Origin: a virus
IMG/VR virus record: IMGVR_UViG_3300020054_000644
Coordinates: 1 to 26,462 of that record
Direction: 5' to 3' (one strand)
Length of the DNA stretch: 26,462 nucleotides
The notes beneath the pieces are model-generated. The model was not told the DNA's origin and made no database searches. It worked only from the letters and a program-made list of their open reading frames with translations. The position numbers and the translations under genes were made by a program. This document shows positions 4,862 through 26,462 of this stretch, piece after piece. The stretch's first letter is position 1; each line of letters starts with the position of its first letter.

Positions 4862-5100
4862 TAGTTACGATATATGGTACCTCAAGCTGTGGTGCTTGTA
4901 TTTCTGCAATGGAATTGTGTAAAAAGAAAGGCGTAAAATTTAGTTACAAAGATATTGGAATTAGTAAATATTATATTGAACTACAAGAACATTTAGTAGG
5001 TACAGATATAGAAATGACAAAAATTCCTCACATAATGGTTGACAAACGCTACATTGGATGTTATAATAGACTCAAAGAATTTTTTTGGGAGTTAGTATAA
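4858..5100 (+). CDS. Glutaredoxin
   Basis: An 80-residue thiol-disulfide oxidoreductase of the glutaredoxin fold. The redox motif is CGAC at about residues 11-14 (YGTSSCGACISAMELC), the cis-Pro is in KIPHI, and the closing GC.YNRLKEF helix matches the family. It probably reduces ribonucleotide reductase or other phage or host disulfides. The start is GTG, overlapping the previous stop (GTGA), with GAGG about 10 bases upstream. A consensus sigma70 promoter lies inside its 3' part (5039-5067). This is a second glutaredoxin, separate from the one fused to NrdB. Confidence 0.88.
   Translation: MIVTIYGTSSCGACISAMELCKKKGVKFSYKDIGISKYYIELQEHLVGTDIEMTKIPHIMVDKRYIGCYNRLKEFFWELV
5039..5067 (+). promoter_or_regulatory. 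Consensus sigma70-type promoter inside the glutaredoxin gene
   Basis: TTGACA (5039-5044), 17-base spacer, TATAAT (5062-5067), all within codons for VDKRYIGCYNR. Both hexamers match the consensus exactly. Transcription would begin near 5074 and serve the gene at 5100. Confidence 0.6.
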
Positions 5101-6605: not shown

Positions 6606-7052
6606 ATGCCTTATTCCAAGAAAGTATTAGACAGATTCGAAGCAGTAACTAATAATCCACAGGCACATGGAGTCGGAAGGTTTGATCCTAACGATCCTAC
6701 TGTTGCAACTGGATTAACAGGTGCACCTGCGTGTGGCGATGTTATGAAATTGGATTTAAAATTAAATCCTGAGACTGAAGTCATCGAAGACGTTAAATTT
6801 AAAACTTATGGATGTGGTTCTGCTATCGCTTCAAGCAGTATGTTCGTCGAAATGTTAAAAGGTAAAACTATTGAAGAAGCAAAATTAATTAAAGATAAAG
6901 AAATTGCGGAAGCTTTAGAATTGCCTCCAATTAAAATTCATTGTTCTGTATTGGCAGAAGATTCAATCAAAAGAGCAATACAAGATTGGGAAGAAAAGAA
7001 AGCAGGTCGTAACGAATCGTGGTTGGAAAAAATGACCAAAAAGGAAGATTAA
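6606..7052 (+). CDS. iscU: IscU-type Fe-S cluster scaffold protein
   Basis: Scaffold on which [2Fe-2S] clusters are built from cysteine-derived sulfur and then passed to apoproteins. All three cluster cysteines are present: C43 in GAPACGDVM with Asp45, C70 in TYGCGSAIASSS, and C113 in KIHCSVLAED with His112. The LPPIK motif (106-110) is the site recognised by the HscA chaperone in cellular IscU, so the phage protein should fit host machinery. Length (148 aa) is slightly above the usual ~128, from a C-terminal charged tail (KKAGRNESWLEKMTKKED). No IscS, HscA or ferredoxin gene is nearby, so it would plug into the host ISC system. The next gene follows two bases after the stop. Confidence 0.93.
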   Translation: MPYSKKVLDRFEAVTNNPQAHGVGRFDPNDPTVATGLTGAPACGDVMKLDLKLNPETEVIEDVKFKTYGCGSAIASSSMFVEMLKGKTIEEAKLIKDKEIAEALELPPIKIHCSVLAEDSIKRAIQDWEEKKAGRNESWLEKMTKKED

Positions 7053-7632: not shown

Positions 7633-7661
7633 TTGACATTTGTTATGAAATGATGTATAAT
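7633..7661 (+). promoter_or_regulatory. Family A promoter upstream of bS21
   Basis: TTGACA (7633-7638), 17-base spacer ending GATG, TATAAT (7656-7661), preceded by an A-tract. The spacer resembles those at 18682, 19279, 20908 and 21946. The expected start near 7668 lies just before an ATG at 7672 that opens an 18-codon frame. Confidence 0.8.
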
Positions 7662-7705: not shown

Positions 7706-7734
7706 TTGACATTTACGAGAAACTGTGATATATT
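7706..7734 (+). promoter_or_regulatory. Family B promoter directly before bS21
   Basis: TTGACA (7706-7711), 17-base spacer TTTACGAGAAACTGTGA, TATATT (7729-7734). The expected start, about 7 bases on, falls at 7741, two bases before the bS21 ATG, so the message should be leaderless. ACAGTT and AACTGT form an inverted repeat around the -35 and spacer. Confidence 0.75.
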
Positions 7735-7742
7735 AATAAAAT

Positions 7743-8036
7743 ATGAGATATAAAGATAACAATGTGCAGGGTACAAGTGTTTATTTAGCACCAAGGAGAA
7801 GGCACCCTAAAGATAAAAAACCTCCTCAACCGATGCCTTTTGATGTAGCATTAAGGAAATTTAAGAAAGCTGTTGAAAAAGCAGGTATACTTAAAGAGCT
7901 TAAGAAAAGAGAATACTACGAAAAACCTACAGCGGTAAGAAAGCGTAAAAAAGCTGAAGGTATTAAAAGACATCAAAAATCTAGAGCTAAAGATATGGCA
8001 ATGAGTAATCTACCAAGAGGTTTTAGAAGATACTAA
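7743..8036 (+). CDS. rpsU: Phage ribosomal protein bS21, extended
   Basis: Homologue of small-subunit protein bS21, which sits near the anti-Shine-Dalgarno end of 16S rRNA and affects start-site choice. The core from about residue 31 matches bacterial bS21: [20 protein letters not shown], then [22 protein letters not shown]. Cellular bS21 is about 60-71 residues. This 97-residue protein adds an N-terminal ~30-residue extension ([16 protein letters not shown]) and a C-terminal tail ending NLPRGFRRY. No Shine-Dalgarno sequence precedes the ATG, and the nearest promoter would start transcription about 2 bases upstream. Phage bS21 is known, notably in phages of marine SAR11 bacteria. A structured RNA element begins 6 bases after the stop. 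It could bias host ribosomes toward phage messages; that is inference. Confidence 0.9.
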
Positions 8037-8041
8037 GTTAC

Positions 8042-8177
8042 GGTTCAGTGGGAATAAACCATGACGGCGAGAGCAATCTAGGACCCACGACGGCTACCGA
8101 GTCCGGGAGCAACTTTTGAACTACCGATATACTGAGTAGGAATATAACGCCAAAGGACCGACCACTGAACTCTTTTT
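8042..8177 (+). ncRNA. Structured RNA element after bS21, unknown class, ending in a T-run
   Basis: A non-coding stretch of about 52% GC (hand count over 8041-8160) in clearly AT-rich surroundings. GTTCAGTGG (8043-8051) pairs exactly with CCACTGAAC (8162-8170), nine pairs plus a G-T, followed by TTTTT (8173-8177), so it is closed by a helix and ends like a terminator. Inside are possible helices: GGCG 8066-8069 with CGCC 8148-8151, GGAC 8081-8084 with GTCC 8101-8104 enclosing CGG-CTA-CCG, and CTAC 8121-8124 with GTAG 8136-8139. GACGGC and GAGCAA each occur twice. CGGTTC (8041-8046) can alternatively pair with GGACCG (8155-8160), hinting at a switch. There is no tRNA, tmRNA or group I intron core that I recognise. 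It may be a 3' UTR structure of the bS21 message or a stable phage RNA. Confidence 0.65.
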
Positions 8178-8194
8178 AGAATGAAGTTTATATT

Positions 8195-8614
8195 ATGGCA
8201 ATAATTCGTGGAATGACAACGCTTAACACTCGTAAGCGCAAATTAAAAATTACGAAAGCAAAATATAAAGAGCTTGAACTGCAATGGCGAGCTTATAATC
8301 GTAATATGAAAAGCAAAGGTATGCATAATCTACGATATGATACCCTTGAAGATTATATTGCATATTGCTATGGTTTGATCAAACATAAACCAGCTTTCGA
8401 AAGCAAACCTATTCCAAAACCAGAACCCTATCGAAGAGAAACTGTACATTATCCATCACTCGTTTCTAAAGAAGGTGGTGGCCACGGTACAAAGAAAGAA
8501 TCACCTAAATATACTGGGACTCTTATCAAAGGCATTGCTACCATGCATAAAAGCAATGCTGTCCCAGTTATTAATCAAAAAGAAGCTGAAGAAATCAGCA
8601 GGATGGCGAGATGA
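8195..8614 (+). CDS. Conserved T4-like phage protein of unknown function
   Basis: A 139-residue basic protein. The opening GMTTLNTRKRK, the segment TLEDYIAYCYGLIK and the ending GIATMHKSNAVPVINQKEAE match a protein I recall as conserved in T4-like cyanophages and relatives. No enzyme motif is visible. The ribosome site is weak (GAAG about 10 bases upstream). It is the first gene after the structured RNA. The next gene overlaps its stop (ATGA). Confidence 0.75.
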   Translation: MAIIRGMTTLNTRKRKLKITKAKYKELELQWRAYNRNMKSKGMHNLRYDTLEDYIAYCYGLIKHKPAFESKPIPKPEPYRRETVHYPSLVSKEGGGHGTKKESPKYTGTLIKGIATMHKSNAVPVINQKEAEEISRMAR

Positions 8615-18005: not shown

Positions 18006-18034
18006 TTGACATTTACGAAGAACTGTGATAATAT
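18006..18034 (+). promoter_or_regulatory. Family B promoter for the ppGpp hydrolase gene
   Basis: TTGACA (18006-18011), 17-base spacer TTTACGAAGAACTGTGA, TAATAT (18029-18034). The spacer nearly matches the bS21 promoter at 7706. The start near 18041 is one base from the ATG at 18042: leaderless. ACAGTT / AACTGT again form an inverted repeat. Confidence 0.75.
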
Positions 18035-18041
18035 AAGAAAA

Positions 18042-18572
18042 ATGACAGATAAAAAATTAATTAGTGAAGCTCTCATGTTTGCGGTAAAAGCACATGGAGA
18101 TCAAAGAAGAAAATACACAGGTGAACCTTATATCGTTCATCCAGTTGGTGTCGCGAAAATTATAGAAGATTCCGTAGAACATACAACTGAAATGATAGTA
18201 GCAGCTTTACTTCATGATGTAGTAGAAGATACTGCAGTTACTTTCTCAGATATATCAGAAAAGTTCGGTACAAAAGTAGCTGAACTTGTCCACTATCTCA
18301 CAAACGTCTCAGAAAAAGAAGATGGTAATCGTGCATTTCGAAAGAAAATGGATGCAGATCATTTTGCTTTGGGACCAGCTGAGAGTCAAACTATAAAGGT
18401 CGCAGACCTTATTCATAACAGTGAAACGATCATCCCTCATGATCAAAAATTCTTTCACAAAGCATATAAACACGAAAAACAATACCTTTTAAGTGTATTG
18501 ACAAAAGCAGACCCAATTTTATTGGATAGAGCACAAACAATCCTTTCAGATGCCTGGGATCCAGCAAATTAG
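18042..18572 (+). CDS. HD-domain small alarmone hydrolase (SpoT/MESH1-like ppGpp hydrolase)
   Basis: Predicted (p)ppGpp 3'-pyrophosphohydrolase: the hydrolase half of RelA/SpoT only. Family motifs from ATG 18042: AHGDQRRKYTGEPYIVHPVG (His18, His33), ALLHDVVEDT with the HD pair His58-Asp59 and the E62-D63 pair typical of active hydrolases, and IKVADLIHN with the last metal-binding Asp. The 176-residue length fits stand-alone small alarmone hydrolases; there is no synthetase or regulatory domain. Removing ppGpp would counter the host stringent response and keep host ribosome and nucleotide synthesis running. The in-frame ATG at 18006 lies inside the promoter -35 region and is not used here. The message should be leaderless, and a hairpin ends the unit. 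Nucleotide substrate other than ppGpp (for example pGpp or NADPH, as for MESH1) is possible. Confidence 0.85.
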   Translation: MTDKKLISEALMFAVKAHGDQRRKYTGEPYIVHPVGVAKIIEDSVEHTTEMIVAALLHDVVEDTAVTFSDISEKFGTKVAELVHYLTNVSEKEDGNRAFRKKMDADHFALGPAESQTIKVADLIHNSETIIPHDQKFFHKAYKHEKQYLLSVLTKADPILLDRAQTILSDAWDPAN

Positions 18573-24499: not shown

Positions 24500-25043
24500 T
24501 ATTACAATGTTTTTTTGCTTTTTCGAGTACTCTAAGATTACTGTGAACAACAACAGAAGTTAACATAAGTGTAGGCATCAAGATTTCATTTGTGATTGTT
24601 TGTCTTTTTTGAATCTCTGGTAATATAGATCCAAATATTGCTGTTTTAAGAAGTACCATTTCATGTATCTCTGGCACTCTTGGTAATAAAGGATTCAATT
24701 CATATACACAATCGTAAGCGAGGGCTTTTTTGGTAGACCAGATATCTGCAGCTTGAACGAGAAAAAAGATCGTCCAGGTGGCTAAGCTGGCAGGTTCCTC
24801 CTCTGTTATTTTAAATTCAGGAAAAATTAATGTTGATTGAATGTGAGATGGATGTGGTAAATTAACAATTGAGCCATTAGGCATTATTCTTGCTTGACCT
24901 ATAATAACTCTTTGAACATATTCGTCATTGTATGGTGCAGTATAACCTGCTTCAAACATTACTCTTTGTATATCAGTGTACCCTGCATATACTGGAAAAC
25001 TTAAAAAAAGTAATCCGATAAGTAATTTATTTAGTAGTCGCAA
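24492..25043 (-). CDS. Exported/membrane protein, DUF5658-like
   Basis: A 183-residue minus-strand protein with a signal peptide (RLLNKLLIGLLFLSFPVYA, cleavage after VYA). In the second half LVQAADIWSTKKALAYDCVY followed by ELNPLLPRVPEIHE resembles the D..ST...G..ENPL pattern of DUF5658, with membrane helices around (VLLKTAIFGSILP). The start is TTG, with GGGA upstream, and overlaps the cyclase gene by 17 bases, so it is cotranscribed with it. Function unknown; the coupling suggests it works with the cyclase or its sensor. Confidence 0.68.
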   Translation of the reverse strand: MRLLNKLLIGLLFLSFPVYAGYTDIQRVMFEAGYTAPYNDEYVQRVIIGQARIMPNGSIVNLPHPSHIQSTLIFPEFKITEEEPASLATWTIFFLVQAADIWSTKKALAYDCVYELNPLLPRVPEIHEMVLLKTAIFGSILPEIQKRQTITNEILMPTLMLTSVVVHSNLRVLEKAKKHCNKR

Positions 25044-26462
25044 TGAAAATCCCGTCCCAATCTTTGGGTAGATCTTGCGTTTTCATATATTCACAACGCT
25101 CTATCCACATGGTATAATATCCAGCCATCTGACCTTCAAAACATTCCATTAAATCATTACATATTTTTATGGCTTTATCAAAGTTTTGTTTTCTATAATT
25201 CATATGCATAGCTTCATGCATCTCAGCCGGTTTAATATATTTATCCTTATTTAAATCTAAAACTGTGTATATCTCAATGCCTACTGATTTGCCCTTTACA
25301 GCAAGATCATCTACTTTCAAAAAGAAAAAGTCATTTCGACATCTTTCAACAGTTGCGCCACCTACTAAAAGCAAACAACCATATTCTTTACATTTAGATT
25401 CTATTCGTGCTGCTGTTGATACTGCATCTCCAAGAACATCATAACTATGTCGCTCTGTAGAACCCATTTCACCAAGATATCCGAGACCAGTATTAATACC
25501 GGCACCCATACCAATTGGTGGTCTTCCTTCAGCAATAATCTTTTTATTAAATTCTTCTACAGATTTAAGCATGTTCAATCCAGTTTGAACAGCAGTTTTA
25601 GGGTGGTCAGGATCTTCTATAGGTGCGTTGTGGATGTGCATCGACGCATCGCCTATATATTTAATAATCATTCCATCAGCGTTAAGGACAGGCTCAGTGA
25701 TTGAATCCATATATCCATTCATTAATTTCGTTAATCCTTGTACGTCATCTCCAAAGCTTTCACCTAAAGGTGTAAATCCTCTTAAATCAGAAAAACAAAT
25801 ACTAATTTCTTTTTTCATTCCCTCTTTAACGAGAGAAGGATTCTCTTGGAGTAAACGAACGACTGTAGGAGAAGCATACCCAGCAAATTGTTTTGCTAGT
25901 TGACGTTTCTCTAAAAACGTGATAAAATACTTGTTAAAACTTGATTGAGCAAATACTACTAAGGAAGCAAATGAACTCATTGTGGCGTCAACGAATAGCA
26001 GCGAATCAGTCCATAAATAATATGATATTAATGAAGAGGAAGCGAGCAGAAATAAACTCGTTGTCAATCCAAGAATTGTGGGCAAAATATAGACCGCTCC
26101 AAGGATACCTAGACTCAGTAAGACCAGAAGAAGCAGCTCGACTATTGGCTGCCAGTCGGGAATCTGTATTTCAACTCCTGAAAGGACGGTCTGAACCAGG
26201 TGTGCTTGAACTTCGTGAGGATACTTTGCACCCGTTGGGGTTGCGACTGGATTAGCATATCCTTCTGCTGTAATACCAAATATTAATACCTTTCCATCTG
26301 GTAAAGGATCAAGTATACTTACTTGTTCAAATTCGTTCCAGAAAGCAATTGGTATTTCGGCAAAACTATTTGTTGTGATAGGATCTTGACGACCCATACG
26401 AATCCACTCAACTCCGAGTGGACCTACTTTCATTTGATAACTGGGTTCTCCTGTGAACACTC
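25027..26462 (-). CDS. CHASE2-like class III adenylate/guanylate cyclase, N-terminally truncated by the window
   Basis: Membrane sensor cyclase. The visible N-terminal part is a CHASE2-like extracytoplasmic domain (VLIFGITAEGYANPVATPTG then AKYPHEVQAHLVQTVLSG), followed by several transmembrane helices, then the catalytic domain: ISICFSDLRGFTPLGES (metal Asp), GMIIKYIGDASMHIHNA (Lys and second metal Asp) and SYDVLGDAVSTAARIES. The Lys and the Asp of YDVLGD fit ATP specificity. In the last motif the usual transition-state Asn is Ser, while the Arg is kept, so activity is uncertain. The C-terminal end (MNYRKQNFDKAIKICNDLM ... DLPKDWDGIFIATTK) is the standard tail of bacterial CHASE2 cyclases. 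The frame is open to the window edge, so no start is assigned. A substrate of GTP or another nucleotide is not excluded. Confidence 0.85.
   Translation of the reverse strand, partial: VFTGEPSYQMKVGPLGVEWIRMGRQDPITTNSFAEIPIAFWNEFEQVSILDPLPDGKVLIFGITAEGYANPVATPTGAKYPHEVQAHLVQTVLSGVEIQIPDWQPIVELLLLVLLSLGILGAVYILPTILGLTTSLFLLASSSLISYYLWTDSLLFVDATMSSFASLVVFAQSSFNKYFITFLEKRQLAKQFAGYASPTVVRLLQENPSLVKEGMKKEISICFSDLRGFTPLGESFGDDVQGLTKLMNGYMDSITEPVLNADGMIIKYIGDASMHIHNAPIEDPDHPKTAVQTGLNMLKSVEEFNKKIIAEGRPPIGMGAGINTGLGYLGEMGSTERHSYDVLGDAVSTAARIESKCKEYGCLLLVGGATVERCRNDFFFLKVDDLAVKGKSVGIEIYTVLDLNKDKYIKPAEMHEAMHMNYRKQNFDKAIKICNDLMECFEGQMAGYYTMWIERCEYMKTQDLPKDWDGIFIATTK

Follow-up and report, generated by a model that had tools for sequence, protein, structure and literature searches.

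GOLLD and ROOL are orphan structured RNAs carried by phages, and we know of few structured phage RNAs with a known job. Both are large and ornate, and their structures have been described (PMC12286853). Among T4-like phages, T4 carries rnaC and rnaD (species 1 and 2), two stable RNAs of about 120–140 nt, distinct from tRNAs, that are annotated in NC_000866 and adjoin the T4 tRNA genes, and the marine Methylophilales phage Melnitz carries structured RNAs of other kinds, a glutamine riboswitch and a two-piece tmRNA (PMC9004378). Ribosomal protein bS21 is linked to a structured non-coding RNA in the Bacillota, the OLE RNA, which it has been found to bind in Halalkalibacterium (PMC12054373). The parts of two reports on phage bS21 retrieved by keyword (PMC9723584, PMC6375957) mention no RNA of the kind considered here.

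The window analyzed in this work, by which we mean the whole stretch of 26,462 bases, is an IMG/VR virus record in which a candidate RNA lies between the gene for bS21 (7743–8036; PF01165, E 1.2e-16) and a gene for a 139-aa protein (8195–8614) that matches PHROG 27048, a family whose label names no function. These genes, the RNA and its parts are all on the + strand. A first-pass annotation of the locus had described a GC-rich island closed by a long helix, matching no protein and no RNA family known to it, and had proposed that the element either regulates the bS21 message or is a stable RNA acting on the ribosome.

Materials and Methods

Homologues were gathered by protein-neighbour and DNA-pattern scans of IMG/VR, and a covariance model, R1, was built from 11 of the homologous contigs. 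For the covariation test, 34 unique rows were aligned with MAFFT and the null was generated by tree-based shuffling of substitutions, with code that we wrote along the lines of R-scape.

Results

The search for homologues that the first-pass annotation had called for returned 39 further distinct variants on about 80 IMG/VR contigs. R1 recovers all 80 searched sources at E ≤ 5e-8, yielding 40 distinct aligned rows, and scores the predicted mature region of the window RNA, from P1 to P1 (8042–8171), at 153 bits. No viral record searched, contigs of 137 kb and 156 kb included, has more than one copy. The carriers are a group of uncultivated marine T4-like phages that also have bS21, heme and Fe–S genes. 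In the window, a ribonucleotide reductase small subunit gene (117–1109) occupies the same region as genes for a protein of the aminotransferase fold resembling 5-aminolevulinate synthase (1120–2328) and a NifU-like Fe–S scaffold (6606–7052). Elsewhere the window encodes an HD_4 domain protein (18006–18572; PF13328) similar to the hydrolase portion of enzymes of the RelA/SpoT type. At the contig end it encodes a class III adenylate/guanylate cyclase with a CHASE2 domain (25027–26460, − strand; PF00211, PF05226), which is unusual for a phage; the gene may serve phage signalling or may mark the edge of an assembly.

The first-pass statement that the element belongs to no known RNA family agrees with the Rfam 15 scans, which gave no match at the gathering threshold for the window, nothing at E up to 10 for the RNA itself and none at E up to 2 for 15 homologous loci; ARAGORN reported neither a tRNA nor a tmRNA, the two-piece form included, for the RNA. 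No blastn match to it was found among the 50,697 phage records of INPHARED, and 397 of 398 sampled Pseudomonadota genomes were likewise negative, the sole positive being one MAG with two matches, both in a phage-like setting, one of them having the sequence that viral contig L260 also carries. Genome contigs gave no match to a first pattern and, with a second, one phage contig in a Rhodobacteraceae MAG together with chance coding matches; the new matches to a loosened core pattern all fell in coding-type DNA, mostly GC-rich, without the rest of the RNA. Two different phage-like contigs carrying the RNA, L374 (FZLS01000007) and G021:C76, were binned in one Rhodobacteraceae MAG, which is a possible but weak hint of the host. 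The view that no protein is encoded also held, as no reading frame is conserved across the variants: the short frame opened by ATGACGGCGAG... in some of them is interrupted or lacks an ATG in others.

The element stands out in GC content as first described (0.51 over 8042–8171 against about 0.33 in its surroundings), and the perfect 9-bp helix reported to close it is exact, pairing GTTCAGTGG (8043–8051) with CCACTGAAC (8162–8170) across 110 bases. Its minimum free energy is not unusual (z = −0.61 for 8037–8180 and −1.65 for 8042–8171), and the case therefore rests on comparison, through covariation and the covariance-model score. Pairs 8101/8158 in P3 and 8044/8169 in P1 exceed all null values in the covariation test, the former occurring as GC, UA, CG and AU with E about 0. 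In the seed alignment, 95.6% of cells are paired and double-sided changes number 33, where shuffles give 8.7; the 40-row fitted alignment, which leans towards the model, has 95.1% of cells paired and 171 double-sided changes against 47, and sliding the partners by 1–3 columns as a control leaves 22–46% paired.

The compensatory changes that the first-pass annotation had proposed to look for are present in P1, P3 and P4. P1 (8042–8051 with 8162–8171), which the covariation test and pairing counts support, shows double-sided change at nine of its ten pairs across 40 variants. P3 (GTCC at 8101–8104, GGAC at 8155–8158), backed by the same two measures, has the strongest covariation and takes the forms GTCC/GGAC, GTTC/GAAC, ATTA/TAAT, TTCC/GGAA, CTTC/GAAG, GTAC/GTAC and CTGT/GCAG. 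P4, a CTAC...GTAG hairpin (8121–8139) with the conserved loop CGAYATACTGA, is found as CTAC/GTAG, CTGT/ACAG, CTGC/GCAG and GCAC/GTGT; it is the site of an optional extension in relatives and is linked to P3 by the junction GGGAGCAAC (8105–8113), conserved among homologues. Judged by comparison among these sequences, the feature of the window is genuine and consists of a structured RNA.

On the 5′ side of this core lies an optional domain based on P2a, in which CC (8059–8060) pairs with GG (8092–8093) and which appears as CG, GC or UA with 100% of cells paired in the fitted alignment. The domain includes an internal-loop motif, GACGGCGAG (8063–8071), near-invariant wherever the domain is present; the P2b hairpin AGA-GCAA-TCT (8070–8079), a GNRA tetraloop in the window that is replaced by other hairpins in relatives; and, on its 3′ side, the motif GGACCCACGACGG (8081–8093), conserved among homologues. 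Two repeats had been noted in the element. The GACGGC repeat is real: where homologues possess the 5′ domain, nearly all of them keep it as GACGGCGAG...GGACCCACGACGG; the GAGCAA repeat is not conserved, its 5′ copy being only the tetraloop region particular to the window. The terminal T-run of the first description is found at 8173–8177, directly 3′ of P1 and terminator-like, and recurs in most homologues; L056, L257 and L225 have a weak one or none.

Several other pairings fail on comparison. The alternative pairing of CGGTTC with GGACCG suggested at first pass is not upheld, as the five positions tested pair in only 15–31 of about 39 variants. A pairing of GGCG (8066–8069) with CGCC (8149–8152) predicted by RNAalifold has no compensatory change, CGCC becoming CACC, and its 3′ motif persists when the 5′ domain is absent. 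Pairing of GUGGG (8048–8052) with CCCAC competes with P1, to which the compensatory changes belong, and was rejected for that reason. CC at 8115–8116 and GG at 8144–8145 co-vary strongly (E 0.05–0.15); in half of the variants UU stands opposite C/U, and the two can at most form a non-standard contact rather than standard pairs. The five GGA of the window form were also considered as a CsrA decoy, and those in P3 are not conserved.

The comparison among variants indicates that the RNA is modular: its minimal core measures 92 nt, the 5′ domain may be present or absent, and the hairpin tips can be exchanged. The whole 5′ domain is absent in L225 and its relatives (92 nt) and in L276 and its relatives (96 nt), and in L056, L061, L085 and L111 the 5′ domain and the core each have a separate closing helix. 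At the tip of P2, some variants have a hairpin of the GNRA type and others a different short hairpin, a hardly varying hairpin of about 33 nt or a branched insert of about 60 nt; at the tip of P4, either of two insertions may be present, or neither. The hairpin GATGGAATCACGGAGTTAATAGCTCTACCATT is identical letter for letter at the P2 tip of L044, L048, L050, L058, L060, L112, L206, L214 and L222. The RNAs that share it have strongly differing backbones, and its identity suggests either module exchange or a strong sequence-specific role.

A perfect (12/12) TTGACA-17-TATAAT promoter lies shortly before P1 in 29 of the 39 variants with enough upstream sequence, ending 4–8 nt from P1, or 13 nt in L257, L260 and L383, where P1 is longer. 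Three large contigs contain 25, 16 and 13 perfect copies of this promoter, against 0 for the reversed control, and it is therefore likely to be the early-promoter type of these phages. Perfect copies recur in the window at 5039, 7633, 14920, 19279 and 20908, and sites with up to two mismatches number 22 against 9.3 expected. In about a quarter of the variants, the window included, the RNA has no promoter of its own and sits directly after a coding gene, an arrangement that would fit a 3′ UTR element too. In the window, L002, the L021–L033 group, L214 and L244 it follows the bS21 stop codon shortly, and in L276 it follows another gene. Upstream of bS21, the window has a perfect sigma70-type promoter (7633–7661) and a second with one mismatch (7706–7734). 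A fresh perfect promoter stands between the RNA and the next gene in the L021–L033 group, L050, L214 and L244, where the RNA is therefore not the leader of that gene.

The RNA occupies at least four genomic locations across its carriers. Most copies lie between bS21 and PHROG 27048. In the L056 group (L056, L061, L085 and L111) the RNA follows a PHROG 1811 gene, and a 107.8-kb contig with this type of location, which may be incomplete, has no bS21 gene. In L257, L260 and L383 it lies between two small membrane-protein-like genes, and in the L276 group a gene resembling PHROG 27048 lies a few genes downstream of the RNA, which has no bS21 alongside. Conversely, L003–L005 have a bS21 gene 83% identical to that of the window that is followed directly by the 139-aa gene, with no RNA, and many more distant bS21 genes likewise lack it. 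L233 has a tRNA-Thr(UGU) gene (2906–2981) directly 3′ of the RNA, and L218 has a tRNA (97–172) preceded only by remnants of the RNA.

Discussion

The explanation that we favor, with a probability of about 0.6, is that this element is a free-standing, early-made small RNA gene of these phages that acts in trans. A stable trans-acting non-coding RNA fits best because of its own early promoter, the start at P1, the stem followed by a T-run, the change of location and the conserved junctions. Comparative support comes from the homologues, the covarying helices, the promoter position, the modular anatomy and the several genomic locations. Under this reading, host sigma70 RNA polymerase would transcribe the RNA early from a strong promoter, with transcription predicted to begin at or near the first base of P1, and the transcript would fold into a core of P3 and P4 closed by P1, with conserved junction nucleotides and usually the 5′ domain (P2), and end at the T-run after P1, for a predicted size of about 95 to 200 nt. 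In the lineage of the window, which has no separate promoter, the early bS21 transcript would have the RNA at its 3′ end. The RNA would then accumulate as a stable species and work in trans, and its conserved junctions and loops would bind one partner, a protein or an RNA, for host takeover. The first-pass suggestion of a stable RNA acting on the ribosome is thereby divided: the stable RNA fits well, and action on the ribosome is not supported by antisense matches to E. coli rRNA, which show no excess.

The arrangement after P1 could also be read as a cis-acting leader of the downstream operon, whether an attenuator, a riboswitch or a put-like antiterminator, in which P1 would double as the terminator stem. 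In most variants the predicted start at P1 and the T-run after it are followed by the next start codon within 20–40 nt, and the conserved junction nucleotides have a riboswitch-like look. However, the gene downstream varies with location, so that the RNA holds no constant position, a perfect promoter separates the two in the groups named above, the RNA trails bS21 in the window, and L003–L005 have the same downstream gene without it; we regard a leader as unlikely. The position after bS21, which most copies share, might instead point to an RNA bound by the phage protein, which would regulate its own message or form an RNP altering translation initiation, by analogy with the binding of OLE RNA by bS21 (PMC12054373). 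The copies at loci without bS21, the 107.8-kb contig without any such gene, and the bS21 genes, from 83% identical to far more distant, that have no RNA beside them all speak against this, as does the lack of a conserved SD/anti-SD mimic, and such binding seems improbable to us. Autoregulation of the bS21 message, the other first-pass proposal, is itself unlikely, because the RNA is found at three loci away from bS21 and close bS21 relatives lack it; in most homologues, moreover, the RNA has its own promoter downstream of bS21. Finally, the invariant single-stranded motifs, the 3′ T-run and the 3′ UTR position in the window would suit a base-pairing regulatory RNA, free or derived from a 3′ UTR, whose invariant loops would target messages of the host or the phage. 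What is conserved, nevertheless, is a set of structured junctions and not a single seed, and antisense matches to E. coli 16S, 23S and 5S rRNA are not above those of shuffles, which leaves such a role very improbable.

A more ambitious form of the trans-acting small RNA would be a new class of RNA machine, in which the modular early RNA would join phage bS21 or another takeover protein in an RNP and so reprogram the ribosomes or another machine of the host, with swappable hairpin tips tuned to the host; this we regard as a long shot. The RNA constitutes a well-supported structured family without a database entry in marine T4-like phages. It is compact, with a natural 92-nt minimal form, natural domain deletions and swaps, and a clear early promoter, and hence its structure and partner are directly testable. 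The locus also illustrates how a neat neighborhood, here beside bS21, can mislead, since related phages have the RNA elsewhere.

Comparison with the known systems sets this RNA apart from each. T4 rnaC and rnaD, although similar as stable RNAs of a T4-like phage, reach a best cmsearch score of 8.4 bits (E 1.3, filters off) and adjoin tRNA genes, whereas the new RNA is usually a separate early transcription unit; only L233 has a tRNA gene next to it, with remnants suggesting that L218 perhaps once did. The OLE RNA is about 600 nt long and binds bS21 through an SD/anti-SD mimic (PMC12054373), whereas the new RNA has no Rfam match and no conserved mimic, the junction GGGAG becoming GAAAG in L276, TATGG in L214 and L056b and TAGGG in L021, and its link to bS21 consists in frequent adjacency only. 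Unlike the structured RNAs of Melnitz, it is neither a tmRNA according to ARAGORN nor a glnA motif according to Rfam. Covariance-model search found no copy in the Melnitz genome, where a 15-bit match inside the tail-assembly chaperone gene is due to chance. GOLLD and ROOL measure several hundred nucleotides against the 92–96 nt of the core described here, and no Rfam model matches the new RNA. On these sequence comparisons, the new RNA resembles none of the known phage RNAs tested. It is new as an RNA family without a database entry, and it belongs to a kind already known, the orphan structured RNAs encoded by phages.
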